A stretch of 64,000 bases of DNA, taken from the NCBI GenBank assembly GCA_001516055.1, contig LOEZ01000019.1, positions 186,001 to 250,000 on the forward strand, written 5' to 3'. Both the position numbers and the translations under genes were made by a program. This DNA comes from Gracilibacter sp. BRH_c7a (GTDB taxonomy: Bacteria; Bacillota; Desulfitobacteriia; Desulfitobacteriales; Syntrophobotulaceae). Positions 13,332 to 64,000 of the stretch are shown piece by piece. The notes beneath the pieces were generated by a model. It ran no database searches. It saw nothing but the letters and a program-made list of their open reading frames with translations, and had not been told where the DNA came from. How positions within the stretch are numbered: position 1 is the first letter of the stretch; the number at the start of each line of letters is the position of its first letter.

Positions 13332-14183
13332 CTAGAACCAGGGATATTGACTCAGTACTGAGGCGTAGAAAAGAATACGGCCGGCTAATTCACCGACTAC
13401 CACCCCAACCAGGGCAATAGATAATACAGAACTACTCGATTTCTGGTTGGCTATAAATACACCGGCCAAAGCAGCAGGCAGAAGTATTCCCAGAATCAAC
13501 CTTACATAGAAGATTGATGAAGAGAAAGTTGCTGCAACAGCCGCAGCTTGTTCTTCTGATAAACCATAAGTCCGGGCGAAAGCTCCCAGCACGATAACTA
13601 TAGCAACTACAGACGCTATTATTACCCATCCAAGTGTCTTTTTGGCTTTTTGTGCATTTTCATCCTCAGCTTTGCTCAGCAGGTATGCTACAGAAATAGC
13701 CCCCAGGATTACTGCAGTCAGTAAGAACGTTGCTATTGTCTGCCAGGAATCCCAGGCCAGTCTTGCCGGCAGGGCATATACCTTACTGGAGATGACCACA
13801 GCCATCAGACCCACTATACTCAGAGTGACACCTACTATTTTGCGACTATCTTTCTCAGGGGTTTTCCACCACATATAGCTATAAATAAGGGCCAGAATAC
13901 CTACTATCGAAAAGGCTAAAATTTCCAGACTTAACATGGATGTGCCTAAATTAGATATAGATTTAAAAGCTGCCAACGGCTGGCCCAAGTGCAACACGGA
14001 GCTTATCATGGCGATGGCAATTAGCGGTAAAACTGCCATGCCTCCCATTCTTATTTGCTTGGTGTTTGCTTCGTTTAATACTTTCGGATAAATATACTCC
14101 ACAAGAGTAATCGTGGCAGCTAATCCAATAGCCCATTGACCAAAGACAGTAAATAATACTAACGGGAATTCCCATGAACCCAT
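13332..14183 (-). CDS. dmsC: DmsC-like membrane anchor subunit
   Basis: A 283-residue integral membrane protein with about eight helices, related to DmsC, the quinol-oxidising anchor of anaerobic DMSO reductase. The N-terminal MGSWEFPLVLFTVFGQWAIG and a histidine in SSVLHLGQP fit the family. It follows the dmsB-like gene by 15 nt and completes a catalytic/electron-transfer/anchor trio. Transported substrate chemistry is set by the DmsA-like subunit; this subunit feeds electrons from menaquinol. Confidence 0.88.
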   Translation of the reverse strand: MGSWEFPLVLFTVFGQWAIGLAATITLVEYIYPKVLNEANTKQIRMGGMAVLPLIAIAMISSVLHLGQPLAAFKSISNLGTSMLSLEILAFSIVGILALIYSYMWWKTPEKDSRKIVGVTLSIVGLMAVVISSKVYALPARLAWDSWQTIATFLLTAVILGAISVAYLLSKAEDENAQKAKKTLGWVIIASVVAIVIVLGAFARTYGLSEEQAAAVAATFSSSIFYVRLILGILLPAALAGVFIANQKSSSSVLSIALVGVVVGELAGRILFYASVLSQYPWF

Positions 14184-14198
14184 CTTAATCCCTCCTCC

Positions 14199-14744
14199 CT
14201 AGTTTTTGACTGCTTTCGCAGGTTTGATGACAATCGACGGATTGGTAATACTGGCGACAGGCATGCCGGGAAATTCCTGGACTCCGGGATATTTTGCTTT
14301 TAGTTCATCTATATCCCCTGCTATAATATTACCTCCGGGACATGCTTCTACACACCGGGGTTGCAGCCCCTGCTCGATGCGTTCCTTACAATAACTGCAT
14401 TTGCTTGTTTTGCCCTCTTCGGGGTCGTACTGTGGAACACCATAGGGACAAGCCATTGTACACATTCTGCATCCGATACACTTGTCATGGTCTTGATACA
14501 CTATTCCATTATCCAGTTTGGTATATGCTCCAGCCGGGCAATTAGCCAGGCATTGGGGATTTTTACAATGGTTGCAGCCCATGGATAATGTAGCCTTTGA
14601 AGGAGGATGCTCCGTATCAAAATGACGCACACGCCTGAGACTTACCCCGGTTGCTGATTGCTGTTCAGACTTACAGGCAACCTGACAAGTCTGACAGCCA
14701 TAACAGTTTGCCATATTCATATAGAACCCAACTTGTTTTGACAT
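14199..14744 (-). CDS. dmsB: DmsB-like four-cluster ferredoxin subunit
   Basis: A 181-residue subunit with four [4Fe-4S] cysteine sets: CYGCQTCQVAC (from residue 14), CNHCKNPQCLANC (about 57-69), CIGCRMCTMAC (about 89-99) and CSYC...CVEAC (about 116-135). It links the DmsC-like quinol site to the DmsA-like catalytic subunit. It starts 3 nt after the dmsA-like stop. No signal peptide; it would be carried out with the Tat substrate partner. All cluster cysteines appear intact. Confidence 0.92.
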   Translation of the reverse strand: MSKQVGFYMNMANCYGCQTCQVACKSEQQSATGVSLRRVRHFDTEHPPSKATLSMGCNHCKNPQCLANCPAGAYTKLDNGIVYQDHDKCIGCRMCTMACPYGVPQYDPEEGKTSKCSYCKERIEQGLQPRCVEACPGGNIIAGDIDELKAKYPGVQEFPGMPVASITNPSIVIKPAKAVKN

Positions 14745-14747
14745 GGT

Positions 14748-17102
14748 TTACGCCTCCTTTCTTACCTCTACCAAAGAAGTATTACAGCATTGGCCTCCGC
14801 CGAGCTGTTCCACAGTATCACTGGTGATATGACTCGCACTGCCTCCCTGATGTTCCCACCAGCCGTTTTCGAGGGAGACCACTCCACGCAGGACATGAGC
14901 TTTGACATCGGCTATACATCTGTGCTCACCACGATCATTATAAACAACACAATTGTCACCATGTTTAATACCCCGGGCTGCTGCATCATCAGGATGAATC
15001 TGGATAGTACCCTTGTTTCCGCATACCTCTACTATCCAGGGAAGGGTGGAGAAAGAGGAGTGGATACTATGGTTAGTCTTGCGCTGGACAGCGGCCAAAG
15101 GATATTTGGAGGCCAGATCGGGTGATCCTTTTACAGACTCTGTAGGACGATAGTAGGTCAGTACAGGATTATACCCTTTCTCTTTCCACTCTGAGACGAA
15201 AAGCATAGCCTTTCCTGTCGGAGTATCAAATTGACCATCTTTATATGGTATGAGCGGATATTGGTCTTTGAGCGGATTTATAGGACCGCTGGCTTTAAGA
15301 CTGGCATAAGTCAGACCCAGGGGTTCTACAATCTTGTCTATAATTTGCTCCGGAGTCTCCTTAAATGCATCTCCGAAACCAAAATGATTAGCTAATAATT
15401 TCACTATATCAAGATCAGACTTGGCTTCTCCGGGTGGATCTACAGCCTTTTCACTGATCTGGATTGTATTGTTACGGATGCTGTTTGTAAAGTTAGTTTC
15501 TTCGAAAATAGTTGCACAAGGTAAAATCAGATCGGCATACAAACAATCGGATGTAAACAGATTGTCTACCTTCACAACAAAAGGAATCTTCTGGAAAGCT
15601 TCTTTACAAGCATTGGTATTGGGATATTGAGTTAGTACACTTGTAGTATGAATGAGCAGGAAACCAATCTTATTAGGTCTGTCTTCAAGAATTGATTTGC
15701 CAAATTCGGCCACCTTTACTGATCCAAAATCTCCAGGAGGAATAGGAGAGCTGAATCCAGCACCGAATTTAAGATAAGCAGCGGAACCACCGTCACTATA
15801 CACACCGGCACCAGGCTTTCCAAAGTTGCCTGTGAAAAGCAGGAGATAATATTGCGCTGCTGTGGCCAGCACACCATATTCAGCACGCTGGAAACCACCC
15901 ATATTTTGATACATTATGGCTGCTTCTGCTTTGGCCAGATCATAAGCGATACGGCTTACAGCAGAAGCTGGCGTCCTGGTTTCATCTTCTACAGCTTGCG
16001 GTGTCCATTTCTTAGCTTGTTCATAAATCATATCAAAGACGGTTACATATTTATCGGTAATATCGGTACCGGCTACACTGAGGGCTCCATTGTCAGTCGA
16101 ATCATGAGCCACGATGCTGTTGCCATCATAGACCAGATAACTTGATGAGTCTTCCGGATCTCCCAGAGCCAGCTCCCCGGTAGATTTATCAACTAGGAAC
16201 GGTACACTGGTATGGGCTTTCAGAAATGCTTCATCATAGAGTTTTTCATCGATAATTATTTTTAATATTCCCAGAGCCAGAGCTGTATCGGTCCCCGGCA
16301 GAATCGGATAATACTCGTCTGATTTAGCCGCAGTTTCACTGAATCTGGGATCAATGGTCACTATCTTGGCACCATTATTCTGAGCTTCAAGTATCCGTTT
16401 GTAATAGGATTGGTTGGTAATGGCAGCATTAGTGCCCCAACAAAGCATATATTTCGTTTGGGGAACAGTATCCCTGATATTCTTGGAGCGGCCTCCCAGC
16501 ACTTGACCTCCGGCTATAGTGACACTTTGACAGCACAATTGGCCAAATGTCCCGGTTTTCCCTCCCATATAGTTCCAGAAGGCACCCCAGGCTCCCCCTG
16601 TCAATAGTCCAAAATTACCTGAACCACCAAGTTGCAGAATCCCTTGGTTACCCAATTCTGCCTGTGTTTCTTTTACCTTTTGGGCAAAAATTTCAGCAGC
16701 TTCATCCCAACTGATTTCCTTGAATTTGCCTTCCCCTTTTTCACCCGTGCGGAGCATTGGTGAAGTCAAACGATCTTTATTATTGACCCACTGGGTACGT
16801 GCCAATCCACGGAGACAAGCTTTGGTTTCGTCTTCACCATCAGTGTTCTGTTCGACTTTGACTATTTTGCCATCAACTACATAAGCCTTCAGACTGTGGT
16901 GCAGACACTCCATAGCACATTGAGCTGTGTAGGTTTCAGCATTGGTCACATCCACCGGAGCTGCTTCTGCCACATCCGTCATGCTTCCAGCTATACCTAC
17001 GCCACCTAAGGCCACGGTAGCTGCACAAGCACCTGTCCCTTTGATAAAGGTACGCCTTGACATATCTGTCATTTTTTTGACATCTTTTTGTTCATTGGAC
17101 AT
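14748..17102 (-). CDS. dmsA: DmsA-like Tat-exported molybdopterin reductase with a Cys-to-Ser change in the FS0 motif
   Basis: A 784-residue bis-MGD oxidoreductase. The Tat signal is MSRRTFIKG (residues 14-22) with a hydrophobic Ala/Gly stretch. The N-terminal cluster motif reads C62-X3-C66-X3-S70 ... C96: the third ligand, Cys in E. coli DmsA, is Ser here (AGT codon at about 16894). The rest of the fold (GTNAAITNQ, PGTDTALALG, the C-terminal MopB domain around IHPDDAAARG) is intact. With dmsB, dmsC, an ABC transporter, a propeller lipoprotein and a cytochrome/FMN protein it forms a seven-gene operon. DMSO is only one possible substrate; TMAO, polysulfide or others are equally possible. Confidence 0.9.
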   Translation of the reverse strand: MSNEQKDVKKMTDMSRRTFIKGTGACAATVALGGVGIAGSMTDVAEAAPVDVTNAETYTAQCAMECLHHSLKAYVVDGKIVKVEQNTDGEDETKACLRGLARTQWVNNKDRLTSPMLRTGEKGEGKFKEISWDEAAEIFAQKVKETQAELGNQGILQLGGSGNFGLLTGGAWGAFWNYMGGKTGTFGQLCCQSVTIAGGQVLGGRSKNIRDTVPQTKYMLCWGTNAAITNQSYYKRILEAQNNGAKIVTIDPRFSETAAKSDEYYPILPGTDTALALGILKIIIDEKLYDEAFLKAHTSVPFLVDKSTGELALGDPEDSSSYLVYDGNSIVAHDSTDNGALSVAGTDITDKYVTVFDMIYEQAKKWTPQAVEDETRTPASAVSRIAYDLAKAEAAIMYQNMGGFQRAEYGVLATAAQYYLLLFTGNFGKPGAGVYSDGGSAAYLKFGAGFSSPIPPGDFGSVKVAEFGKSILEDRPNKIGFLLIHTTSVLTQYPNTNACKEAFQKIPFVVKVDNLFTSDCLYADLILPCATIFEETNFTNSIRNNTIQISEKAVDPPGEAKSDLDIVKLLANHFGFGDAFKETPEQIIDKIVEPLGLTYASLKASGPINPLKDQYPLIPYKDGQFDTPTGKAMLFVSEWKEKGYNPVLTYYRPTESVKGSPDLASKYPLAAVQRKTNHSIHSSFSTLPWIVEVCGNKGTIQIHPDDAAARGIKHGDNCVVYNDRGEHRCIADVKAHVLRGVVSLENGWWEHQGGSASHITSDTVEQLGGGQCCNTSLVEVRKEA

Positions 17103-51222: not shown

Positions 51223-51294
51223 GAAAAGATAGCACATTAAATACATGGGTATTCAAATATAGAATAAACTATATAATCAACCATACAATCAAAA

Positions 51295-51445
51295 AACACT
51301 TTCTTTCCACGCCTACGAGGTTAGCTGTCGGATTCGGGCTGAAAAATAGCCCTACCTTCGAGATTCTCGTACTCGCATGAGCACTGAATCTCTAGTGGAT
51401 TCACCCCAAAGATTTGGGTCCCCCGCTTCTTGTTTGCACTGTTTG
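51295..51445 (-). promoter_or_regulatory. Cyclic di-AMP riboswitch (ydaO/yuaA class)
   Basis: The minus-strand leader contains the conserved blocks of this class in order: GCGGGGGACCCA, TTTGGGGTGAAT, a variable arm, then CCCGAATCCGACAGCTAACC followed by TCGTAGGCG. These fit the ydaO consensus closely. A terminator follows and then the amino acid transporter operon. In B. subtilis and relatives c-di-AMP binding switches such operons off, matching roles in osmolyte and amino acid uptake. Boundaries are approximate. Confidence 0.92.
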
Positions 51446-51644
51446 TGAAAACAACAGGACAAGTAATTAGGCGATCTAATAAACAATAAATATTCAATTA
51501 ACAATAATTAATGTTAACACTATAAGTATTATATGTAAAGAATCGCATATCTGCTTATTCTTACATATACAGCGATTAGGTATTATTACAATACATATAC
51601 TTACCTATCCAACAAAATGCATCAGCTTACAAAGTATGTTTCCA

Positions 51645-52041: not shown

Positions 52042-52608
52042 TTAATTACTCGTTATCAAAGATAATACTTCTGCTCGGGTGGCAACATTCTTGCGGAAAA
52101 TTCCTCTAACTGCTGAGGTAATGGTTTTTGATCCCGGTTTTTTTATCCCTCTGATTGTCATACATAAATGTTCCGCTTCTATTACCACCAGCACTCCTCT
52201 GGATTCTAAACTTTTTTCTATAGCTTCTGCTATCTGAGTGGTCAGACGTTCCTGAAGCTGTGGTCTTCTGGCAAACCCTTCAGCAGTCCGAGCTAGCTTA
52301 GATAAACCGGTTATTTTGCCATTATTAGGTATGTAGGCTATGTGAACGAAACCTACAAATGGAAGTAGATGGTGTTCACACATGGAATAGATGGGAATAT
52401 CTTTAACAATCACCATTTCATCATGTTCTTCTGAGAATTGTACTTTTAAATACTCTGTTGGATCTTCATGCAGCCCCCCGAATGCTTCACAGTAAAATCT
52501 CGCTACTCTTGCAGGTGTGTCCCGTAATCCTTCTCGATCAGGGTCTTCTCCGACTGCTTCTAGAATCTCTCTTACGGCTTTTTCAATCTTCGTCACATCT
52601 ATATCCAT
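52042..52608 (-). CDS. folE: GTP cyclohydrolase I
   Basis: A 188-residue type IA enzyme making 7,8-dihydroneopterin triphosphate from GTP. Zinc and catalytic motifs [30 protein letters not shown] and [11 protein letters not shown] are present. It ends a cluster of methanofuran/H4MPT genes, and dihydroneopterin is the pterin precursor of H4MPT as well as folate, so it may serve the methanopterin branch. It starts 13 nt after the HisA-like gene. Confidence 0.93.
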
Positions 52609-52621
52609 GACTTTACCTCCA

Positions 52622-53413
52622 CTAAGAATTAAGCTGTTGGATCATTTTCTGATCGATTGAACCATTATGTAAAGCTGTCGCTATCAATACTCCTCCTACT
52701 CCGTTAGCTGCCAACCACCTTAAATCTTCGTATTCTGAGACTCCGCCACCGAGAACCAGGGTCGCAGGTAAATGGCTAAATGAGTGGCTTTGATCACAAG
52801 CTTCTAGACATTTAAGGATTAGTTTTCTATCAACACCTGAGCCTGTCCCCACCCTTGATAGCTGTAAAAGAATAAATTCCCTTATGCCAGTTTTAGATAT
52901 TTCTAGGATAGCTTCGGGAGGAGTAAGCTTTGCAAGTCCCTTGTTGGGACTTAGAACTCGATTATCCTGGACATCAATACTTGCCACTAGCCGGTGGGAT
53001 TCAATATTTGAGGTAATCTCCCGCAAAGCACCAAGTGATTGGAGGGTCTCTGTACCAATAACCACTCGATCGATTCCCGACTCCAAGGCCTTCAGAGCAC
53101 TGGCTTTATCAGTGATGCCTGCGTCTACCATCATAGATACTAAATTAAAGCCACTGTTGTTTTTAGAAGGTATAAGTTGAAATTGATTGTGCTCACCAGA
53201 AGAGATAATGGCATCTAAATCAGCGAGGTAGAATTCCTGCAGACTAAGTTTTCTCATCAAGTCAGCAACAACAACTTTGCACTCGGTGGAAGAGGTCAGG
53301 AGGCTTTTCAAAGGCTGATATTTATCTCTTTCCCCTTTTACCCCGTGTACCACCATGCCATCTTTAAGATCAATCACTGGAATCACACGGAATCTTTGTT
53401 TAATAACTTTCAC
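52622..53413 (-). CDS. HisA-like TIM-barrel protein of C1 clusters (COG1411-like)
   Basis: A 263-residue barrel related to His[21 protein letters not shown] at the N-terminus, SIDVQDNRV, and [20 protein letters not shown] near the C-terminus. It is not with histidine genes. HisA-like proteins of this sort accompany H4MPT genes in methanogens and methylotrophs, with an unsettled role in cofactor synthesis. Third from last of the cluster, tightly spaced on both sides. Confidence 0.78.
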
Positions 53414-53425
53414 TCCTTTAGAAAA

Positions 53426-54514
53426 TTAATCTCTTATTGCTAGGTCTCCTACCAGAAGCCACGCTGCACAATAAGCAGTCATTACTTGTTGGGACTTTGC
53501 ACCAGGTACTATCTCCCACCAAGAAATGGTCGAACAGGATAAACGGCGAGCCACTTCTTGTAGGATAAAAGTTCCCTGCCCTGTAGTTACAAAAGTATAA
53601 AGAGAAGATAAATCTTTTCTAGATATGTTCTGTAGGATTCCTTCTGTAATAATATTTATCTGCTTTTCCTGAAAATATCTAGCAATTCTCTGTACTTTTT
53701 CCATCCCCAGTTCCTCCAAATCAGAAGCAACTGCCCTAGCTAGTCGCCGGGCACAACTCTCAGGATCTTTACCACCTCCATCAGGAGTTGGCACATCATA
53801 ATCGGCTTCACTTATTAACTCTAATAAGCGGTATACATCTGCACTTATAGCGAAGTATTCATTGACAACCCTAGTTTGGATTCCATCTATATAAATGTGG
53901 TCTGTTAGACAATTGACAGCAGTTCTAAGCAGTCCGGAATATACTAATTCCCCTGTAGCTAACCTCTCCGTATCTGTTCTCCCTCTGGCCATTACCTTTC
54001 CTCTGATTATGGGAATAATATCTGTAGTAGTACTGCCCATATCTATCAGAAGGAAGCTGCCGCTTCCCAACTTCGGACTTCGGGAAAGTGCAGCTGCACT
54101 AGCTAGCCAGTTAGCGGCTGCCGCTTGCAAGGGGGCTTTTCTTATTTGGGCGGGACTAGCGAAGCTACCTTGAGTAGTCCAGATATAAAGAGGAATATCT
54201 CCAAATATCTGTTCTGTCATTTCAATAATGGAGAGTACTCCTTCGGTTTTAGAGAGAAAGGTATCACAAAGTTCGGCAGTCATGGTCAGAGCTATTCCTT
54301 TTTTACTTGTTAAGTTTCCTTCATTTGCTTTTTCCTTGTCCATGAAAAACAAATTCTTAAGCTCTTCAAGTATTTCACTGAGCCCTTGGGAGTTTTTCCA
54401 CACTTCATGATATTTGGAATAGTCTTTTGATTCCACTACTTTCCCTTTATTTAAATTTAGAAGACATGCTTTGGTATTTGCTCCACCGATGTCTAAGCCG
54501 AGAATAGATTGCAA
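53426..54514 (-). CDS. H4MPT-linked C1 pathway protein (TIGR03123-like, sugar kinase/hydantoinase fold)
   Basis: A 362-residue protein with an actin/ASKHA-type nucleotide-binding start (ILGLDIGGANTKACLL) and a second phosphate loop (LLIDMGSTTTDIIPI). It matches my recollection of the one-carbon-linked family TIGR03123, always found with H4MPT genes. The enzymatic step is not established. It lies 20 nt after the MfnD-like ligase. Confidence 0.78.
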   Translation of the reverse strand: MQSILGLDIGGANTKACLLNLNKGKVVESKDYSKYHEVWKNSQGLSEILEELKNLFFMDKEKANEGNLTSKKGIALTMTAELCDTFLSKTEGVLSIIEMTEQIFGDIPLYIWTTQGSFASPAQIRKAPLQAAAANWLASAAALSRSPKLGSGSFLLIDMGSTTTDIIPIIRGKVMARGRTDTERLATGELVYSGLLRTAVNCLTDHIYIDGIQTRVVNEYFAISADVYRLLELISEADYDVPTPDGGGKDPESCARRLARAVASDLEELGMEKVQRIARYFQEKQINIITEGILQNISRKDLSSLYTFVTTGQGTFILQEVARRLSCSTISWWEIVPGAKSQQVMTAYCAAWLLVGDLAIRD

Positions 54515-54534: not shown

Positions 54535-55527
54535 TCATTTGTTTATCTCTTCATTGAATATCTGCCAAAGATCTTCAGCAATATTAGGCTTAACCACCTC
54601 TCTTAGAGCTACATAAGCAGAGGTGATACGAGCATTTATCTCCATGATTACCGAGTGCCTGGAGTTCACAACTAGATCGACTCCAACAAATCCTTTAAGA
54701 CCCGTGATAGATTCACAGGCACGGACAGCAATAGTGAGGATATGCTCAGACTGAGGGTGAAAGAAAGGAACGATAATTCCCTGAAAAAGTAGTTCTTCCC
54801 CATGATTGATTATCTGCTTGTTTAGACTGAGAGGGAAAGCCTTCCCATCCTGAAGCAGACAGCTGACACTTACCGCCTCCCCAGGAATGAATTCCTGAAC
54901 GAGGAATTGTTCACCTGGTCTTTTTTTCTCCAGCTGTTGAGCCCTGCTTACCAATTGCTCATAATCCTTTACCACGTAAACGTCCTCACCGCCTGTTCCT
55001 AATACGGGTTTGATAACCAAGGGGAGAGCAAAGTGTTCCTCAACTTTAGCTGTTAGATTGTAACTCAAAGGAGGATCTAGTACCTTAAACTTGGGAATAG
55101 GCAAAGCATGGTTCGTTAGATAATTACAGCAACTTGCTTTATTGCTTACCAATTTTATGGCTTGTGATGCAGATCCAAAAACAATCTTGCTGCATTCTTC
55201 AGCTAAGAGTGTGAATTTAGTAATTAAACTGTCTGTTTCTGGAGCGATGATTAGGACAGCATCACATCCATCCAATATCTCACGAAACGTGGCGAAAACA
55301 TCTTTTTCTTCATCTCTCGATCGACAATGGATGCTTACCTTATCCAAGTAGGGAGCAGCTAAGGTTCTTTCTGCCAGTGAAGAATCCATAAGCGTAGTGG
55401 TTTCCAAGCTTTCAAGCTTGGAAAAGTCCTTAAGCAGAGCATCTAGCATAGCAAACCCAGCTTGGATAAGCTCTTGATTATCTCTTGATCCTCCAGCAGA
55501 AAAGTATTCGTATATAAAAAGTTTCAA
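54535..55527 (-). CDS. mfnD: ATP-grasp ligase, MfnD-like (tyramine-glutamate ligase)
   Basis: A 330-residue ATP-grasp enzyme: KLFIYEYFSAGG start, PLVIKPVLGTGGEDVYVV nucleotide-binding region, FLVQEFIPGEAVSVSCLLQ, and VMEINARIT metal site. The sequence fits COG1821, including MfnD of methanofuran synthesis, which joins glutamate to tyramine. Beside MfnB and the Fwd genes this is the best assignment. A 136-bp gap separates it from mfnB, where a secondary promoter could lie, but none is evident. Confidence 0.75.
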   Translation of the reverse strand: MKLFIYEYFSAGGSRDNQELIQAGFAMLDALLKDFSKLESLETTTLMDSSLAERTLAAPYLDKVSIHCRSRDEEKDVFATFREILDGCDAVLIIAPETDSLITKFTLLAEECSKIVFGSASQAIKLVSNKASCCNYLTNHALPIPKFKVLDPPLSYNLTAKVEEHFALPLVIKPVLGTGGEDVYVVKDYEQLVSRAQQLEKKRPGEQFLVQEFIPGEAVSVSCLLQDGKAFPLSLNKQIINHGEELLFQGIIVPFFHPQSEHILTIAVRACESITGLKGFVGVDLVVNSRHSVIMEINARITSAYVALREVVKPNIAEDLWQIFNEEINK

Positions 55528-55663: not shown

Positions 55664-56404
55664 CTAGTTTATTACACCCCTATCTATAACTTCTTTGATT
55701 TCTTTAACTTTCTGGGCAGAAAGTCTACCGTTAATTCTATCCCCTTGACAGACAACAGATCTTACCCCTATGATATCCGGTTTAAGCTTACATATAGAAA
55801 AAATATCTACTTCTTTTAGAGAGCCTGCGAGCCCGCAGAAGAGTCCATTCTTATGACAGTTGTCAACGAATTGAGTGAGAACTTCTCCGTCCAGATATTC
55901 CAATAAAGACCTGCCGTTTTTCTCCCAAGTATCAATTAAACAACCCTCTGCTCCGCTAACTTGAGTAAAAGAAATGAACTCTGACAAGTTCCAAGAAGCA
56001 TCCTTTAATAGATCTGCATAAACCACGGAGACGATAGAAGTCTGTGTTTTATTTGGAGAATAGTTCAGGCTTTTCTTAATCAAACCTAGAGTTTTAATTA
56101 TTTCTTGGCCTAAGGAGTCTGGAATAAAAGCAATTTTTAAATAACCCGGTTTAAATAATGCACTTCCTAGTGCTGCTAAGGCAGCTGCACTTGGTGTCCT
56201 TGGGAATTCTCCCAAAGCAATACTGAAAGGCTTCTTTCCTTTAAGCTCTGCTGCTACTTGGGCAATAATCTCTGGAGAAGGGGCTCCCAAGGCACCTTCC
56301 AATGGATTTTTAAGGTCGATGATATCTGCTTCACCTTCTAAGGCTGCTAGGGTTTCTGTGGGGCTCACTACACTCACCAAGAGCTTCGGGCTTGTTCTTA
56401 TCAT
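55664..56404 (-). CDS. mfnB: (5-formylfuran-3-yl)methyl phosphate synthase
   Basis: A 246-residue barrel enzyme of the DUF556/MfnB family, making the furan ring of methanofuran from two molecules of glyceraldehyde-3-phosphate. SVVSPTETLAAL and the active-site segment DIIDLKNPLEGALGA with K32 match the family. It overlaps the CitG-like gene by 4 nt. Its presence indicates this organism makes a methanofuran-type carrier. Confidence 0.87.
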   Translation of the reverse strand: MIRTSPKLLVSVVSPTETLAALEGEADIIDLKNPLEGALGAPSPEIIAQVAAELKGKKPFSIALGEFPRTPSAAALAALGSALFKPGYLKIAFIPDSLGQEIIKTLGLIKKSLNYSPNKTQTSIVSVVYADLLKDASWNLSEFISFTQVSGAEGCLIDTWEKNGRSLLEYLDGEVLTQFVDNCHKNGLFCGLAGSLKEVDIFSICKLKPDIIGVRSVVCQGDRINGRLSAQKVKEIKEVIDRGVIN

Positions 56405-57300
56405 CTCACCATCTCCATATCACCAAGATATTTTTTTTCTAGGAGGTAAACAAAGATTATTGCAGCCATTAAATCTGCAGTAGTTCCAGGATTTAGGGCC
56501 TTGCCAGACTTTCTTAACCAGTGGTCAAATTCCTGTACATAAGCCTGACCTTCAGGGGTAAGCCAGCCTCCTCTTTCCCATACTTTTTGAGCAAAAGTCT
56601 GTACTTCCTTGCCCTTCTCTAAACCTGACTTCCTGACTATCAGAGAATCGGGATATTGGGTCAATAAGAAAAGATGGGTATGGGCAATAGCTTTAGGGAG
56701 CGATAACCCTTTTGTTAGAGCATCCCCCAAGGCCTTATAACCGATTTCTAAGACCTGTTCAAAATTATTGATATACTGGCGAGCAATCATGTCTCTATCA
56801 GCCGCCAGTTTCATGGCCTCCTGCAAGGGAATATCTGCACTTTGCTCATTAAAGACATCATGTTCTTTTACTTTCCCCATCCCAGACGGGGATGCAAGTC
56901 TAATCGCCTGATAGACATAAGCGGTATCTTCTATAGTCAACCCCTCTAATACATTGCCAATCTCTTTCAACCATGACTGTTTTTCTTTCGTTCTACACCA
57001 GGCCATTGCCAAAGGAGCAATAAGGAGAACTATCCCTAGGTTGGTATTCGTCTTAACCAATGCCTGGGTAGCTTTGATAGCCTTATAAACAGTTAGTCCA
57101 ACTCCCTGTTTCTCAATGAACCCGAATGGATGTGCTACAGCTAAGGCACTAAAGTGGAAATCTTCCAGACAACAATCAGCGAAATCATGAAATCGGTTCA
57201 CATTACCCACTTTAGGAGCATCTGCTTCCAGGATACAGGCAGCTTGAACAGCCAGAGAGATATTCCAATTTAAATTAATATCCGAGGTATTTGTCGTCAT
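56401..57300 (-). CDS. CitG/MdcB-like triphosphoribosyl-dephospho-CoA synthase family protein of C1 clusters
   Basis: A 299-residue helical protein of the CitG family: EADAPKVGNVNRFHDFADC (Gly-Asn motif), TNTNLGIVLLIAPL, and a C-terminal NPGTTADLMAAIIF. In methylotroph H4MPT clusters a CitG-like gene (orf5) occurs at this place and is needed for the pathway, so a role in attaching a phosphoribosyl group during methanopterin synthesis is likely. There is no citrate lyase or malonate decarboxylase nearby. It overlaps both neighbours by 4 nt. Confidence 0.8.
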   Translation of the reverse strand: MTTNTSDINLNWNISLAVQAACILEADAPKVGNVNRFHDFADCCLEDFHFSALAVAHPFGFIEKQGVGLTVYKAIKATQALVKTNTNLGIVLLIAPLAMAWCRTKEKQSWLKEIGNVLEGLTIEDTAYVYQAIRLASPSGMGKVKEHDVFNEQSADIPLQEAMKLAADRDMIARQYINNFEQVLEIGYKALGDALTKGLSLPKAIAHTHLFLLTQYPDSLIVRKSGLEKGKEVQTFAQKVWERGGWLTPEGQAYVQEFDHWLRKSGKALNPGTTADLMAAIIFVYLLEKKYLGDMEMVR

Positions 57301-58223
57301 ATCCTACCTATCTTTCTCAGAACATATTTAGCTATAACTTCGGCAATATTTATATTGGAGACTGACTGGAGACCTGTCCAGCCAGGGATACCATTGGCCT
57401 CAATAAGGTATGGTTTACCGTCACTGATTAGGATGTCTACCCCTAGATAATCTGCCTGCAGTATATCTGCTGTCCGAACTGCCAGCTCAGTCATTACTGA
57501 GTCCGGATGATAGGGTTCAGCCGTTGCTCCACAAGCGATATTAGCCTTCCAATAGTTAGACTGACGTCGCATAGCACTAACCACTTCTCCCCCAACTACA
57601 AATAACCTGTAATCTCCGTTATCATGAGGAAGAAACCCTTGCAGGTAATAGACATAATTCCCAAGTTCCAAGGCTCGAAATACCCTGTGGGCAGTATCCG
57701 GATCTTCAATTAAGACCATCCCTTTGCCTAAGGAACCGAAGAGTGGTTTTACAACTACCCTACCGAATTTTCTCACCGCTTCCATTGCCTGATCGAATCG
57801 CTCTGTAACGATGGTTTTAGGTACTGGCAACCCAGCATCAGCCAGCAAAGCAGTGGTATAGAACTTATCAACAGTTTTCTCTAGCAGCGAAGGGCTATTG
57901 ATAATCATCAAGCCCTGTTTCTCTAAACGGTGAAGGACATCCATCCTGTAAATTACCTGTTCCAGCGATCCTCCCGGCAGTGAACGTATAAGCAAGGCAT
58001 CCAGGTTTTTAATATTTTCTGGAGTTTGAGCTTGCCCGTCTAGAGCTTCCCTACTTTCAGCCAAAAAAGTAGCTGACTGAGGCATATATGAAGTTAGCTT
58101 CTGGGGATCGATGAGTTTTACCTTGACTCCCATTCCCTCCAAGGCGATAGTTAAAGCCTTAACATGGGGCCCCTTAGCCGTTCCGAGAATCCCGATTGTT
58201 GTCTTTGAGCTTAGTACAGTCAT
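57297..58223 (-). CDS. RimK/MptN-like ATP-grasp glutamate ligase
   Basis: A 308-residue ATP-grasp enzyme: GRVVVKPLFGSLGKGMVLIED (about 158-178), YYLQGFLPHDNGDYRLFVVGG, and PYLIEANGIPGW with the metal-binding E/N. RimK relatives add glutamate to cofactors; MptN converts H4MPT to tetrahydrosarcinapterin and other members act on coenzyme F420. In this cluster a methanopterin- or methanofuran-modifying role is most likely. The exact acceptor cannot be read. Confidence 0.78.
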   Translation of the reverse strand: MTVLSSKTTIGILGTAKGPHVKALTIALEGMGVKVKLIDPQKLTSYMPQSATFLAESREALDGQAQTPENIKNLDALLIRSLPGGSLEQVIYRMDVLHRLEKQGLMIINSPSLLEKTVDKFYTTALLADAGLPVPKTIVTERFDQAMEAVRKFGRVVVKPLFGSLGKGMVLIEDPDTAHRVFRALELGNYVYYLQGFLPHDNGDYRLFVVGGEVVSAMRRQSNYWKANIACGATAEPYHPDSVMTELAVRTADILQADYLGVDILISDGKPYLIEANGIPGWTGLQSVSNINIAEVIAKYVLRKIGRI

Positions 58224-58239
58224 CAGTTATTGGCACTCC

Positions 58240-59214
58240 TTATGCTTGTAACTTAAAAGATTTCTCCAATAAGTCAGAACGTATTTTACCGGCGTGGAAA
58301 GAACAACCAGTTTTTGTATTGCTCAGCCATACTTCCGCCGGACTGAATAGTAGAGAATCGATATCATAAAAGTTACCGTATCTAGAGAATAACTCCTGGA
58401 AAGGAATCCCATAATCCTTAGAGCTGCTGGAGGGAAGACGTTCGATAAGAGAACTGAGATTATCATCTGCATCCTCAAGGTTGTAGTGGACTGTAGTCCC
58501 ATAAAGAATAGCATCATTCGTTCGCCCCAAAGCGGTAAGGTCATCTCCGGCAACTGGCGGAACCGGGCAGATTCCCCAACCACTCTTGATACGACCGATA
58601 TCATAGCCCAGTTCCATCAATTTATGGAGACCGGTCTCTACAGAACGAGCCGCTATCTGCAGGGAACCTACAGCAGAAGCTGTAGGAGCAACAAGGATAT
58701 ATACTTTTTGGGGGTCACATCCACATTTCTCTACTATGAAGTCAACTGTCTCTTCATCTGGGAGCTTTCCGCTTTCCAGGCAGAGGACAGCTGTCTCTGC
58801 TGAATCTGCGTAACCCAGCTTTGAGAGCAGCTCTTCATTTTGGACGACAGCCCTAGCTGGACCAGAACCCATGGCGGAATATTTGCCATTCTTAACAAAC
58901 CACCCTGCATACTGGGAAGCCATACAGGCCCGAACAGGATGATCTGTGATCACTTCCACCGCCGGCCAGCGTAAGCCTGCAAAGTCTGCCCAGTGTAAGC
59001 TAACCTGAGCTAGACCTCCCAGACAGATATTGGCAAATACCAACCCCGCTTCCCAACCGGCAGGAACATTAATCCCACAGTCGATTACTGTCGCTCCCCT
59101 GACTTTTCTGCTTTCGACCCGGAACTTTGCAATATTATCTAGAAGCTGTTTAACGAACGAAAGTGCTCCCAGATTAGGACTAAGCTCAGGTATATCTTTT
59201 AGTGCGAGTGGCAT
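58240..59214 (-). CDS. mch: Methenyltetrahydromethanopterin cyclohydrolase
   Basis: A 324-residue enzyme interconverting 5-formyl-H4MPT and methenyl-H4MPT. Family features are GATVIDCGINVPAGWEAGL (about 40-58), PVRACMASQYAGW, AMGSGPARA and IKSGWGICPVPP. It overlaps fhcC by 16 nt, so it is made with the formyl-transfer enzymes. No methylene-H4MPT dehydrogenase follows in the window. Confidence 0.94.
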   Translation of the reverse strand: MPLALKDIPELSPNLGALSFVKQLLDNIAKFRVESRKVRGATVIDCGINVPAGWEAGLVFANICLGGLAQVSLHWADFAGLRWPAVEVITDHPVRACMASQYAGWFVKNGKYSAMGSGPARAVVQNEELLSKLGYADSAETAVLCLESGKLPDEETVDFIVEKCGCDPQKVYILVAPTASAVGSLQIAARSVETGLHKLMELGYDIGRIKSGWGICPVPPVAGDDLTALGRTNDAILYGTTVHYNLEDADDNLSSLIERLPSSSSKDYGIPFQELFSRYGNFYDIDSLLFSPAEVWLSNTKTGCSFHAGKIRSDLLEKSFKLQA

Positions 59215-60062
59215 GTCAGAATTTCCCCCTTTCCTCCTTCATTTCCATCACCACTATAACGTTTAAAATAAATATCTTTATTGGAACATTGAAGGTTAAA
59301 CCCCTGATCTTTCAATTCTCTGTAAAGTAATCCCCATACTGGACAGCGGTAGGTACAATTGTAATAGAATGTGGGGAGTAATAATTCTCCTGGTTTCAAA
59401 AGGATTATTGTCCCCCGTTTCATATTTGCTCCTACCCTTATTCCTGGTACACCTCCTATCAATAATGTACCTGCAAGCATTCTATAACCTGGTGCATCCC
59501 CACAATTGCCGTTAATTGCGATTACTCCTCTTCTCATCCGGGAGCCTACCATCTGACCGGCATCACCATTGATAAGAATCATCCCCCCACGCATCCCTTG
59601 GGGATTACCACGATAGCCTGAGCCTATAAAATGTCCGGCCGAGCCTTGGACAATAATCTTCCCGCCTTCCATCTGGGCCCCCAGCCAATCACCAGCATTT
59701 CCTCTGACTATAAGAGTGCCACCCTTCATAAGAGCACCAGTATGGAAGCCGACCGAACCTTCAATTAGTAGCTCCCCGGAACTCATACCCTCTCCCAAAC
59801 GTTTAAACCTTATCAAATCTCCTTTGATAATAATTCTAGTGTGGCAGAGAGGCGTACCTTCTTCAAACTCATCTACTTCTTCAACCTCGGAGATCTCCAC
59901 TGTGAAAAACTCGGAGAGCTTTCTCTGTTCATTGCCATACCACAAAAGTAGATTATTTATTTCAGTGGCATCCATGCTGCTCAGGTTATCTGGGGTAATG
60001 TTTTCAGCCTCAACTGGCAGGGATGGTTCAGTTTTAAGAATCAGGGTTATTTGTTTACACAT
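59199..60062 (-). CDS. fhcC: Formylmethanofuran dehydrogenase/Fhc complex subunit C
   Basis: A 287-residue subunit whose C-terminal two thirds are a right-handed beta-helix of the glutamate-synthase alpha-domain type, with repeats GNAGDWLGAQMEGG, GSAGHFIGSGYRG, GDAGQMVGSRMRRG and GNCGDAPGYRMLAG. FwdC/FhcC forms the scaffold with FwdA and FwdB. Start 60062 follows the formyltransferase stop by 1 nt. Two C-terminal cysteines (CTYRC) are noted. Confidence 0.92.
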   Translation of the reverse strand: MCKQITLILKTEPSLPVEAENITPDNLSSMDATEINNLLLWYGNEQRKLSEFFTVEISEVEEVDEFEEGTPLCHTRIIIKGDLIRFKRLGEGMSSGELLIEGSVGFHTGALMKGGTLIVRGNAGDWLGAQMEGGKIIVQGSAGHFIGSGYRGNPQGMRGGMILINGDAGQMVGSRMRRGVIAINGNCGDAPGYRMLAGTLLIGGVPGIRVGANMKRGTIILLKPGELLLPTFYYNCTYRCPVWGLLYRELKDQGFNLQCSNKDIYFKRYSGDGNEGGKGEILTCHSH

Positions 60063-60063
60063 A

Positions 60064-60978
60064 TCAATTACCTCCCAATATCTTATGGAGATGAAAATGA
60101 TATTTACCTAGACGACCACCGTAATTACCTGCTGTAATACGTAGTACACCTGGGACCTCTACTGCTGCCCTAATTCCTATACCCATGGCTTTGCTAACTA
60201 ATTCATCTGTCAAGCCATCTATGACTATCTCTAATACACAATTAGTGTTTTCGGATAACATGGTATCTTCTACCCTACCCTTTATGGTTGGACAATAAGC
60301 TGTATTGGTAGAAGCCGTTAGGAATTTATACTTTGATCCCACCTTGCTGCCGCTACGGACAACACCCCCGGGAAAAGGAAGAATTATTCCTTTTAATTCC
60401 TTCATCTTGACTACAGCTGCTTCACAGGCTTGTAGAGCACTTTCTACATTCTCAGCCAAGATCAGGAAGTTTCCACCACCTACTGCTTTAGCCAGGGTGA
60501 ACTCTTCTTGAATTAGAAATTCGCCTTCCATAACAGGGATGCGCCAATATCGTTTAGCACCGATTACTTTACTGGCTTGATAGCCGTCCCCGAAGAAACG
60601 AAGCTTCCCACCGATATTTACTTTAGACAAAGCACTATCATTTCCCTTAAACTCTGGTAAGTCTCCATCGAAGCAGGCAGTGGTTGGACAAGTCATTACC
60701 GCTTGCCCAATCCGTTTTAGGAGATTGCTCTCTAGCTCATCTTTAGAGGGAGCGAAGAAAAGACAATTCATGCCCGGTCTGCCATCCGGGGTATTGGATG
60801 AATATCCTTCAATCCCGGCTTCCACTCCACAGCCAATAACAGAAGTGGCAAATCCCGTAACTGCCGCAGCCCCATTATATGCCCAGTTATCATTTATCCC
60901 TGTAATAGTCAATCTGGCTGCCCGCATACCGAAAGCTTCTGCAAAGGTGTCTTCTATCTCTACACCGTTTAATCGCAT
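60064..60978 (-). CDS. fhcD: Formylmethanofuran:H4MPT formyltransferase
   Basis: A 304-residue enzyme (Ftr in archaea, FhcD in methylotrophs) moving the formyl group between methanofuran and H4MPT. Start MRLNGVEIEDTFAEAFGMRAARLTITG is diagnostic, as are GRPGMNCLFFAPS and ILPFPGGVVRSGSKVGSKY. It overlaps fhcA by 10 nt and precedes fhcC, the same order as in bacterial fhc clusters. Confidence 0.95.
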   Translation of the reverse strand: MRLNGVEIEDTFAEAFGMRAARLTITGINDNWAYNGAAAVTGFATSVIGCGVEAGIEGYSSNTPDGRPGMNCLFFAPSKDELESNLLKRIGQAVMTCPTTACFDGDLPEFKGNDSALSKVNIGGKLRFFGDGYQASKVIGAKRYWRIPVMEGEFLIQEEFTLAKAVGGGNFLILAENVESALQACEAAVVKMKELKGIILPFPGGVVRSGSKVGSKYKFLTASTNTAYCPTIKGRVEDTMLSENTNCVLEIVIDGLTDELVSKAMGIGIRAAVEVPGVLRITAGNYGGRLGKYHFHLHKILGGN

Positions 60979-62606
60979 GCTATCACCTCCGGATGTATGA
61001 TATATTCATCCTGGACTGCGTAATTAGCCAAGGCTATCGTATAGTATTTGGCAAACTCCTCGATCAGATCTGGCGGAAGTACTTTAGAACCATCCGGATC
61101 AACCAGGAATGACTTCCCGCTCAGACTTTGAGTGATTTCGCCATCTTTGACTACCACTTTACCATTTTTTAAAACATAAGCAGGTCTGGCGAACATCTTT
61201 TCTTTATCCTCTAAAAGTCTGTAGATTGCGACATCGGCATCGGCGTTTATCCCGAGATGACCTTTGTGTTTTAATCCCAGATCCTTTGCGGGACCACTGC
61301 GGGTAATTATAGTTATCTCTTCCAAGGAGTATTCTCTCTTTATGTCCTTCAGGTTGGTAAATTGTGCCACCTTGGGAGGAAGTTGCTCTAACATCTCATT
61401 TCTAAAGTCATAATCCATTAACAGACGGATAATATGAGGATAGGCCGTAAATGGTCCTGCATTTGGATGATCAGTAGTGAGGCTGACCTGCCAAGGATTT
61501 TTGGTTAACAACAGCAATTCCAAACCTATACACCATTGAATCGCATTTACCAGATTGGACTGCTTATAAGCGAGGGGAACAATTCCCGATCCTGTTTCCA
61601 TTTCGATATCCGCACTAATCCATTTGTTACCCGTCATCTGATGAAGTCTGAACTGCATAGGGGAATCCGACGTCATGGTAGTCGCCGGTCCAAATACGAG
61701 CTGCCCTACGTCATAGGTGAATTCAGGGCGAGTATTCAAATATTCGGCAATCTCCGAAGCCGCAGAACTAAGACCCCATCTTTTGGTCATCCCATAAGAA
61801 TGAAATTGCAAATGAGTAAAATGGATCGGATATCCTTCCAAAGCATACATAGTTTCCAGGGTAGTCTTGAAATTGCCTGGTTCACCAAGGTGATTAGCAT
61901 GGAGGTGGAGTCCATGGGGGAGTCTTAAATCTTTAATCGCCTCAGCTAAACCTAAAAGGATACCTCTGGGCGTAACTCCAAAAGGCGGAACCGGAGTGTC
62001 TAAATCTACTGAACCTTTTCCCCATTTCCAGCTTTCAACACCACCAGGATTAACTACTTTAACAGCATAACCCTTGCTGCTCGTCAAAAGCCAAGTTACT
62101 AGATCACGAAGTCTATTTTTCCTTGCGGAGTCGTCTTTTTCACTGAGCACCTTCATTATCAGATAATTATTTCCCATCAGGGTATAGATACCAGTATCGA
62201 GTAGAGGAGTATCCTGCAATTCCTCGTGGGCATGACGCGCTTCCAGAACGGGCACAGCCGCTTCAAAGGCTGTTGTATAGCCCAGCTGCGCATAGAGGTA
62301 GCCTGTTAGGAAAGTAGTGGGTATGGTAAAGCCTGATCCCGATCTGGTTATTGCAGTTACTTTTTTAAAATGATCATAATGATCTTCCGGACACATCGAG
62401 CGGGCACTATTTACTTTAGCACCTGCTATATGACTATGAATCTCCACCCCGCCCGGCATAACAACACAACCAGTAGCATCGATAACTTCTGCAATCTTTG
62501 TGGATAAAGTATCGACTACTTTACCTCCCTCGATATAGACATCCCTTACTTCTCCCCTGTCTCCATTAAGAGGGTCATAAACCTGCCCGTTGACGATTTT
62601 TAACAT
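60969..62606 (-). CDS. fhcA: Formylmethanofuran dehydrogenase/Fhc subunit A (amidohydrolase)
   Basis: A 545-residue amidohydrolase-fold subunit. Binuclear metal ligands appear intact: VEIHSHIAG (HxH), a Lys in YAVKVVNPGG, HLHANHLGE, IHFTHLQFHS, and Asp in TTDHPNAGPF. In archaeal FwdA this site joins formate and methanofuran; in methylotroph FhcA it hydrolyses formylmethanofuran. The gene overlaps fwdB by 32 nt. It thus supplies the formate-condensing half of the enzyme. Confidence 0.94.
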   Translation of the reverse strand: MLKIVNGQVYDPLNGDRGEVRDVYIEGGKVVDTLSTKIAEVIDATGCVVMPGGVEIHSHIAGAKVNSARSMCPEDHYDHFKKVTAITRSGSGFTIPTTFLTGYLYAQLGYTTAFEAAVPVLEARHAHEELQDTPLLDTGIYTLMGNNYLIMKVLSEKDDSARKNRLRDLVTWLLTSSKGYAVKVVNPGGVESWKWGKGSVDLDTPVPPFGVTPRGILLGLAEAIKDLRLPHGLHLHANHLGEPGNFKTTLETMYALEGYPIHFTHLQFHSYGMTKRWGLSSAASEIAEYLNTRPEFTYDVGQLVFGPATTMTSDSPMQFRLHQMTGNKWISADIEMETGSGIVPLAYKQSNLVNAIQWCIGLELLLLTKNPWQVSLTTDHPNAGPFTAYPHIIRLLMDYDFRNEMLEQLPPKVAQFTNLKDIKREYSLEEITIITRSGPAKDLGLKHKGHLGINADADVAIYRLLEDKEKMFARPAYVLKNGKVVVKDGEITQSLSGKSFLVDPDGSKVLPPDLIEEFAKYYTIALANYAVQDEYIIHPEVIACD

Positions 62607-63888
62607 TGCTCACTCTCTCCTTTATGGAACGCAATACTTCAACATCTGACGGATACGGGAAGTCAATTATTTTCTTGACGTGGAGGGGAACATTATCCAT
62701 TCGATAAAAAGTTCCCTCTGCACCAACTCCCGCAGGGGCAACTGGGATGACAACATTTGCCCAGGGGGTTGTCAGGTTTTTATGAGGTTCTATGGCAATA
62801 GTAGGGATACTCTGTAAGTAGCGTACAATATCATATGGTAGGTGTGCTCCGGGATCAGTAGCGATAATCAGCGCGGCATCCACTTCCTTACGGTGTAACA
62901 TATCAACCACACTGAATTCCCCAGGATTATACCAGGGATACCCTCGATTGAAGTTGACGGCCAAAGGATAACCGGTCTGCCAAGTCATAACTTGATTACT
63001 TCCATTGACATTGCCATGCCCGCGCATAGCAATTCCATAAAAACGAGTAAATTTATTAAGTTCACTTACGAGAGTACTTAACTGTTCAATGTTTAAATCT
63101 TTGCCCCTACTCTGGGTAAGACCAATGCCAAACATAACCACTCCGTAACTACTCTGCTTCATAAGTTCAGCTAGTTCCTGCCACTTAGCTAAAGGAACTC
63201 CGCCGATCAGACTATTATCTGTCAGTCCGTGCAGAGCCACGCCATTAACCAGGGCACGTAAAACAGTGGCTATTTCAAAGTCCTGTCCAGGTGTAACCTG
63301 TAAGAAGATATCAGCATTCTTTGACGTTGGAGTTGGCCTGACATCTATCACTACCACTTTACGGCCTTTACGCCCTTCAGGCGTATACATTCCCTTGGAC
63401 ATGGCAGAATACCGACTAAGGTGACGCATATGAGATTCCATTGGATTTGCACCCCAGTAGATTAAAAGATCTGCCCTATTCTTAACCTCTCCTAGAGTAC
63501 ATGAGGCCAGCCCAACGAGCTGACGGGCCATAACGCCCGGACCGTGTCAATAGGATGAAGGATTATCTATTGTCCCCTGAACCAGTTCAGTTAGAACCAC
63601 CGCTTCCCGTATGGCTTCACTGGTTGTACTGCTTAAACCATAGATTAGAGGTGCTTTCGCCTGGACGAGGATCTCTGCCGCTTTATCAATTGCTTCTTCC
63701 AGAGCAGCTTCCTTACCGTTCACCCTCAAGGAAGCTAGGTCAGACTGGGCATGCATTAGCTTATTACGGCCGATTGTACAGACATGACCTACTTTAGTTA
63801 TGGTATTATCCTCTACTTGAACCTCCAAATCATCACAGAGACAGCCGCAAAAAGTACAGACAACATCCTTGTGGACTTGTAATGCCAT
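62575..63888 (-). CDS. fwdB: Formylmethanofuran dehydrogenase subunit B, putative selenoprotein (UGA at codon 114)
   Basis: Two ORFs (63547-63888 and 62575-63531) lie in the same frame, separated only by a TGA at 63547-63549. Reading it as selenocysteine gives a 437-residue protein, the family's usual length, with ...NPSSY-U-HGPGV-MARQLVG. In archaeal FwdB/FwuB the Mo/W ligand is Cys or Sec in exactly this HGP context near residue 118, so the TGA replaces the expected ligand codon. The N-terminus has CTFCGCLC (C11, C14, C18) and C37 for a [4Fe-4S] cluster, which methylotroph FhcB proteins lack. A catalytic dehydrogenase reducing CO2 to formate (or the reverse) is predicted. GGGGGG precedes the ATG at 63888. 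The Sec machinery is not in the window. A sequencing error or TGT-to-TGA mutation is the alternative, but frame and motif are both preserved. Confidence 0.85.
63505..63546 (-). promoter_or_regulatory. Candidate bacterial SECIS element downstream of the fwdB UGA
   Basis: Two overlapping hairpins follow the TGA: CGGGC-(GTTATG)-GCCCG (63539-63524) and GTCAGC-(TCGTTGG)-GCTGGC (63524-63506, one G-U). The second has a GU in its apical loop and lies 22 nt from the TGA, in the range of known bacterial SECIS. I cannot fold it properly, so which hairpin is used is unsettled. Confidence 0.45.
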
Positions 63889-63927: not shown

Positions 63928-64000
63928 TCAGCTCAATTGTTGAACACTCACCGGTATGTTCTTGAATTCCGGTACTCCTGTTCCTGAGGTTTCAGACCCT
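63928..64000 (-). CDS. fwdD: C-terminal end of a molybdopterin-binding protein, probably FwdD
   Basis: The last 24 codons of an ORF that enters from the right edge: GSETSGTGVPEFKNIPVSVQ... ending in Ser. The G-x-P-x-F/Y-K-x-x-P-V ending is typical of the MGD-binding C-terminal domain of formate-dehydrogenase-like enzymes, which is a separate subunit (FwdD) in formylmethanofuran dehydrogenases. It lies 39 nt upstream of fwdB in the same orientation. If FwdD is confirmed, the cluster encodes the full metal-binding unit. Confidence 0.6.
   Translation of the reverse strand, partial: GSETSGTGVPEFKNIPVSVQQLS

Follow-up and report, generated by a model that had tools for sequence, protein, structure and literature searches.

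FwdB, the catalytic subunit of formylmethanofuran dehydrogenase, is commonly regarded as a methanogen enzyme, and its appearance as two adjoining open reading frames in an anaerobic, spore-former-type member of the Bacillota raises the question of whether the gene is broken or encodes a selenoprotein. In the 64,000-nucleotide stretch of Gracilibacter sp. BRH_c7a DNA that was analysed (hereafter the window), a mechanical list of ORFs gives fwdB as halves of 113 and 318 residues that match opposite ends of one family. The minus-strand frame of 62575-63888 holds only two stop codons, an internal TGA at codon 114 (63549..63547) and the terminal TGA at codon 438; on the plus strand, this interval has many stops. 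An earlier note on this DNA had claimed that a single in-frame TGA splits the gene exactly at the Mo/W ligand, that the frame is open on both sides for a total of 437 residues, and that the four cysteines of the [4Fe-4S] cluster are kept. All of this was borne out, on a strand that the note had left unstated. The features of the gene are as follows:

62575-63888, minus strand: fwdB, Mo/W and [4Fe-4S] catalytic subunit of formylmethanofuran dehydrogenase, 437 residues through one TGA (TIGR03129, 543.7 bits; 8rja_B, 5.5e-123; 5t5i_B, 5.7e-118; fold match to 8rja_B and 5t5i)
63547-63549, minus strand: UGA codon 114, predicted to be read as selenocysteine, the Mo/W ligand (aligned with Cys or TGA in 23/23 relatives aligned and in 7 TGA genes)
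63506-63524, minus strand: putative SECIS hairpin GUCAGC-UCGUUGG-GCUGGC, with GU in the loop and the loop starting 28 nt past the UGA (6 bp paired in 7/7 TGA genes; codon conservation)
63524-63539, minus strand: possible lower or first SECIS hairpin, GGGCGUU..GCCC (consensus fold of 7 genes)

In a profile search against TIGR03129 (formylmethanofuran dehydrogenase subunit B), for which the curated cut-off is 327.8 bits, the joined product scores 543.7 bits, the second half 401.7 and the first half 113.5. Across 24 aligned rows, consisting of the window protein and 23 relatives, residues C11, C14, C18, C37, H115 and R289 are invariant and column 114 is Cys or Sec, an alignment that the earlier note had proposed as a check and in which one or the other residue is found in each FwdB whose ligand motif is intact. 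The motif in the window protein is Y-U-HGP, with U114 directly before H115. The best solved-structure matches are 8rja_B and 5t5i_B; the ligand-site residue is Cys in 8rja, 5t5i, 9sw6 and 7bkb, and is X (non-standard) in 9sfi_Q, which fits Sec. A predicted model of FwdB (mean pLDDT 82, pTM 0.70) has low confidence at the ligand loop and contains no cofactor, and in structural ranking it places 8rja_B and 5t5i first, with the metal-free homologue FhcB (6s6y) far lower.

The TGA is not peculiar to this genome. The same codon is TGA in seven fwdB genes, drawn from six Bacillota genomes that were assembled independently, namely the window gene, one in a Peptococcaceae MAG (G012:C92), two in Desulfosporosinus lacus DSM 15449 (G040), one in 'Candidatus Formimonas warabiya' (DCMF), and one each in G360 and G291. 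The DCMF assembly is a complete chromosome, and another of the genomes is a single 3.3 Mb contig. The Peptococcaceae MAG carries two fwdB copies, one with TGA and the other with TGT at the ligand codon. Planctomycete TGA genes excepted, TGC or TGT is found at this codon in the remaining aligned relatives whose HGP motif is intact; the ligand is missing entirely from some planctomycete homologues. The UGA is aligned with the Cys of homologues and kept in more than one organism, as in bacterial selenoproteins. A search of plasmids for fwdB returned only copies of less than 60% identity.

The nucleotides downstream of the TGA are constrained beyond what they encode. The next 20 codons are frozen at synonymous sites among the seven TGA genes, with a mean pairwise codon identity of 0.767 against 0.416 elsewhere, and 10 of 18 post-TGA codons are fully identical, as compared to 6 of 185 in the rest of the gene. 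This stretch is the top-scoring window of the gene, and none of 100,000 permutations scored as high, whereas in seven Cys homologues it is unremarkable (0.412 versus 0.459, p 0.81). The consensus hairpin, G(U/C)CAG(C/U)-NNGUNGG-GCUGGC, is register-specific, with 100% of cells paired in the seven genes and at most 50% when the register is slid, and it is not formed by the TGT paralogue of the Peptococcaceae MAG that also holds a TGA copy. No compensatory double changes occur in the hairpin among the seven genes, and thus the case for a SECIS rests on codon conservation. Support for the lower hairpin is weaker than for the apical one, and is partly accounted for by coding constraint; base 63524 is common to the lower hairpin and to the outer pair of the apical hairpin.

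Bacterial Sec codons require a hairpin closely downstream of the UGA with a small, G-containing loop, and the published bSECIS model specifies a loop of 3-9 nt, a stem of 4-16 bp, G at loop position 1-2, a distance of 16-37 nt from the UGA, and an MFE of -7.5 or lower (PMC13188914). The window hairpin falls within these limits, lying 28-30 nt from the UGA with a stem of 6-8 bp, a loop of 7 nt or GUU (3 nt), and an MFE of -19.4. Three of the seven TGA genes depart from the strict model, with G at the third position of the loop instead of the first or second. Such features are SECIS-like, and point to an element of the bacterial type.

The decoding machinery, whose absence the earlier note had regarded as fatal to a selenoprotein, is complete in the genome: tRNA-Sec and selB are on contig C61, and selA and selD are on contig C20. 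The selD gene has an in-frame UGA of its own, and FdhA, encoded on the same contig as fwdB, has a UGA at its own ligand, in the motif HCARTUHAP. Taking the gene, the conservation of its TGA, the selection on the SECIS, the machinery and the operon described below, all of which are read from sequence, fwdB is most probably (roughly 0.9) an intact selenoprotein gene for a redox-competent catalytic FwdB in an anaerobic Bacillota lineage. We infer that Sec is inserted, the hairpin at 63506-63524 directing the ribosome, SelB and Sec-tRNA to decode UGA-114. Sec-114 would then be the protein ligand of a bis-pyranopterin centre of Mo or W, flanked by H115 and R289, and C11, C14, C18 and C37 would hold the [4Fe-4S] cluster. 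CO2 and formate would be interconverted at FwdBD, and formate and formyl-methanofuran at FwdA.

Two other explanations would deny FwdB a functional read-through. A nonsense mutation or a miscalled Cys codon would leave both halves dead; only one base change separates TGT or TGC from TGA, and the genome is a draft of 98 contigs. Yet the rest of the frame contains no further stop, the selection at the nucleotide level after the TGA is confined to TGA genes, and the same TGA recurs in seven genes of six genomes, the complete chromosome and the 3.3 Mb contig among them. Because the recurrence of the TGA is joined by selection on the codons that follow it, chance or sequencing error is ruled out in practice, and a pseudogene can be regarded as refuted for practical purposes. 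Alternatively, the TGA could be a true stop, with re-initiation at ATG-120 (63531) yielding the second half as a separate chain that then assembles with the first. This ATG is six codons past the TGA, and by itself the second half exceeds the TIGR03129 cut-off. However, no Shine-Dalgarno-like sequence precedes the ATG (TGACACGGTCCGGGCGTT), and DCMF and other TGA genes have CTC, GTC or ATC in its place. An enzyme in two pieces would also have lost its metal ligand in spite of retaining H115, R289 and all of the cysteines, and would leave the codon freeze and the hairpin without explanation, making such an arrangement scarcely credible.

The genes surrounding fwdB indicate the setting in which a selenoprotein FwdB would function. 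The cluster within the window, in the order fwdD-fwdB-fwdA-ftr-fwdC-mch followed by genes of cofactor synthesis, is as follows:

63928-64000, minus strand: fwdD, 3' part (NF042908, 1.8e-17; Molydop_binding); the whole gene is L031:4929-5282, reaching the window equivalent of 64281
60969-62606, minus strand: fwdA, zinc amidohydrolase subunit (TIGR03121, 733.6 bits; HSHIAG, VKVVNPGG, HLH and TTDHPN motifs retained relative to 8rja_A)
60064-60978, minus strand: ftr, formylmethanofuran:H4MPT formyltransferase (NF002554, TIGR03119)
59199-60062, minus strand: fwdC (TIGR03122, 268.8 bits)
58240-59214, minus strand: mch, methenyl-H4MPT cyclohydrolase (TIGR03120, 385 bits)
57297-58223, minus strand: mptN-like H4MPT:glutamate ligase (NF040720, 237.9 bits, under the cut-off of 350)
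56401-57300, minus strand: CitG-like triphosphoribosyl transferase (PF01874, 229.5 bits)
55664-56404, minus strand: mfnB-like (5-formylfuran-3-yl)methyl phosphate synthase, methanofuran synthesis (NF002575, 174.1 bits, under its cut-off)
54535-55527, minus strand: ATP-grasp ligase, probably mfnD-like (PF02655, PF18301)
53426-54514, minus strand: mfnF-like or H4MPT-linked C1 transfer pathway protein (TIGR03123, 326.6 bits; NF040623, 227.7)
52622-53413, minus strand: HisA-like protein, conserved in the cluster, including that of relatives (PF00977)
52042-52608, minus strand: folE, GTP cyclohydrolase I, pterin synthesis (NF006826, 290.5 bits)

Ahead of fwdD, beyond the window (L031), are genes for an ATP-grasp protein, an Mpt_N-domain methylene-H4MPT dehydrogenase (Mtd), DUF447, a dihydropteroate-synthase-like protein, an AfpA/dihydromethanopterin-reductase-like flavoprotein and beta-RFAP synthase. 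FwdA, FwdC and FwdD are encoded beside FwdB, and the FwdABCD-Ftr-Mch-Mtd set is complete, together with genes for methanofuran and tetrahydromethanopterin synthesis. The FwdF/FwdG electron module that is present in studied archaeal complexes is not among the operon genes. In relatives, the same gene order is headed by a large putative regulator, with DUF2193 and a MIP channel after it; the regulator we take, from its sequence, to be of the sigma-54/AcoR-like type. Contig C19 also carries fchA, fhs, Sec-fdhA and metF, named from sequence, and acsB. Two C1 branches thus appear to coexist in one bacterium, in which FwdABCD, Ftr, Mch and the Mpt_N-domain dehydrogenase would constitute an archaeal-type methanofuran/H4MPT branch beside a folate Wood-Ljungdahl branch.

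Several other features of these loci were noted. The genome has a second, partial cofactor cluster (L127, G000:C58:108000-127000) with a large putative regulator, DUF2193, a MIP channel, an RFAP synthase-like protein, a DHPS-like protein, an MfnE-like kinase and a second FolE, where roles other than that of DUF2193 were assigned by similarity to searched copies. Adjoining the fwd cluster at L031:10999-12849 (minus strand) is a 616-residue protein that matches neither Pfam nor NCBIfam. At L031:12890-13747, 13748-14602 and 14541-15050 (minus strand), larC (nickel-pincer) seems to be present as two genes in permuted order, the C-terminal part leading and the N-terminal part last, with an AIRC-domain (LarB-like) gene between them. 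A c-di-AMP riboswitch (RF00379, 86 bits) is located at window positions 51294-51483 (minus strand), upstream of an apparent amino-acid ABC transporter.

A cluster of this content could be taken for that of the aerobic methylotrophs, in which the complex is only a formyltransferase/hydrolase yielding formate, and the Sec site would then be vestigial. The gene content is similar to that of fhc clusters, FwdF and FwdG do not adjoin, and 6s6y_B is a distant structural match. FhcB is indeed a homologue, and part of a C1 complex linked to H4MPT, but it has lost the HGP ligand motif (Azospirillum; 6s6y), whereas the window protein keeps it, a contrast that the earlier note had drawn correctly. Moreover, the cluster and ligand residues are all invariant here, the UGA is under selection, and the pterin-binding partner fwdD is present, so that a vestigial site is very improbable. 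A phylum relative of FwdB, L090 (G135:C191), is without the HGP motif and under the family cut-off, and is possibly a metal-free, FhcB-like form.

For the redox-active FwdB favoured here, the direction of flux is a separate question. Searches of seven genomes, six with a Fwd cluster and drafts among them, found acsB in every one but neither Mer nor Fae in any; the completeness of the Gracilibacter genome itself is 95.8%. Because methyl groups could not reach acetyl-CoA synthase by a known route in the absence of Mer, and because the folate branch covers CO2 reduction, the oxidative direction is favoured. From absences in draft genomes, we infer that methylene-H4MPT is somewhat more probably oxidised to CO2 on balance, with low-potential electrons released at FwdB. 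The same enzyme could instead reduce CO2 to formyl-MFR, and onwards to methylene-H4MPT, for carbon assimilation. The closest studied relatives, in methanogens, run in that direction (PMC11656701), and acsB is present, but with Sec-FdhA, Fhs, FchA and MetF already in the genome, and with methyl-H4MPT having no known route to acetyl-CoA synthase, reduction is the less likely direction. The cluster itself holds neither an FwdF/FwdG module for electron flow nor Fae for substrate entry.

A candidate for the entry step, and a candidate only, is DUF2193 (PF09959), which occurs in each of the six genomes that have a Fwd cluster, in two copies in both of the genomes with two clusters, and is absent from a congener (G001) that itself has no Fwd cluster. 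The genes are located as follows:

L127:12090-13649 (G000:C58); L033:217-1698; L034:547-2028; L131:5369-6838; L132:1166-2647; L129:656-2137; L130:5340-6821: DUF2193

DUF2193 is mostly followed by a MIP channel, and the family is described as archaeal. Structure prediction for DUF2193 gave a mean pLDDT of 48, too low to support a claim about its fold. Metal binding has been proposed for an archaeal member in a proteomics paper (PMC9431491).

With regard to the origin of the Sec site, a tree of 52 rows places the TGA genes and their nearest Cys genes in a 14-row clade (100/99), inside which two sets of Cys genes are nested: Synergistaceae with the Cys copy of the Peptococcaceae MAG, and a deltaproteobacterium with a planctomycete. 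The topology of the clade and the shared SECIS fit one gain of Sec followed by at least two reversions to Cys, and parsimony over the 52-row tree, archaeal row included, gives five changes. One planctomycete Cys gene within the clade (L075, TGC) could form an apical hairpin, GCCAGC-AGGUCGG-GCUGGC; this sequence is possibly a fossil SECIS left by a Sec-to-Cys reversion, and is not the minimum-energy fold there. The planctomycete TGA genes L103-L105 (motif SLUHGPT) lie in a separate clade, with Cys in sister rows and a different hairpin, suggesting that Sec was probably gained there separately from the Bacillota clade.

The Sec form of FwdB is established in methanogens (PMC13188914; PMC9312934), and recent surveys show bacterial FwdB copies and describe the Sec form for methanogens (PMC13188914); the bacterial copies are thought to be archaeal in origin (PMC10100899). 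Bacterial Sec fmdB genes have nonetheless been found in planctomycete P2, which has Sec and Cys copies together, and in a Lake Washington fosmid (PMC4807772). Thus, the statement in the earlier note that methanogens have Sec or Cys at this site is right but incomplete, and to call the lineage unexpected was too strong, although the Bacillota do appear to be new in the searchable literature. A literature search, which did not extend to the bacterial H4MPT gene survey of Adam et al. 2019, found no report of Sec-FwdB in Bacillota, and the DCMF papers make no mention of formylmethanofuran or methanopterin. The window gene is therefore not the first bacterial Sec-FwdB, and its occurrence in Bacillota is apparently unreported.

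Among the closest known systems, the Sec isoenzyme of methanogens, FwuB/FwdB (Methanopyrus kandleri, reference 74 of PMC13188914), shares TIGR03129, a Sec ligand to Mo/W in a UHxP motif and the FwdABCD core. It differs in that the archaeal SECIS is usually in the 3' UTR, whereas the window gene has a bacterial hairpin in frame after the UGA, in a cluster without an adjoining FwdF/G polyferredoxin module and in a bacterium with a folate Wood-Ljungdahl pathway. The planctomycete P2 and Lake Washington genes likewise belong to bacteria and specify a Sec-FmdB as part of an fmdDBAC operon, and the coexistence of Sec and Cys copies in a genome is described there as well (PMC4807772). Sec formate dehydrogenases (FdhA/FdhF), one of which is on the same contig, belong to the same superfamily and share the Sec-His ligand pair and SelB decoding but, unlike FwdB, consist of one large subunit that includes the fourth domain as a fusion, and have no tie to methanofuran.

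Taken together, these observations are compatible with a more far-reaching picture, to which as a whole we would give rather less than even odds. A group of anaerobic Bacillota would possess a complete methanofuran/H4MPT branch, equipped with a redox-active Sec-Mo/W Fwd, beside the folate Wood-Ljungdahl pathway, and would oxidise C1 units through a new, Fae-free entry, perhaps involving the DUF2193 protein and the MIP channel encoded at the head of the cluster; Sec in the FwdB of these bacteria would have been gained separately from planctomycetes and archaea. The presence of both C1 branches in the genomes studied here contrasts with a survey of 14 acetogens, from which fwdABCD is absent (PMC5039349). 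The catalytic gene will probably be split by automated annotation, with the result that the pathway is hidden. The mix of Sec and Cys within one well-supported clade provides a clear-cut example of how Sec is gained and lost, in which the SECIS can be traced at the nucleotide level. Finally, because cultured Bacillota ('Ca. Formimonas warabiya' DCMF and D. lacus DSM 15449) carry a Sec form that is predicted to be redox-competent and to have a SECIS of the bacterial type, the enzyme is testable.
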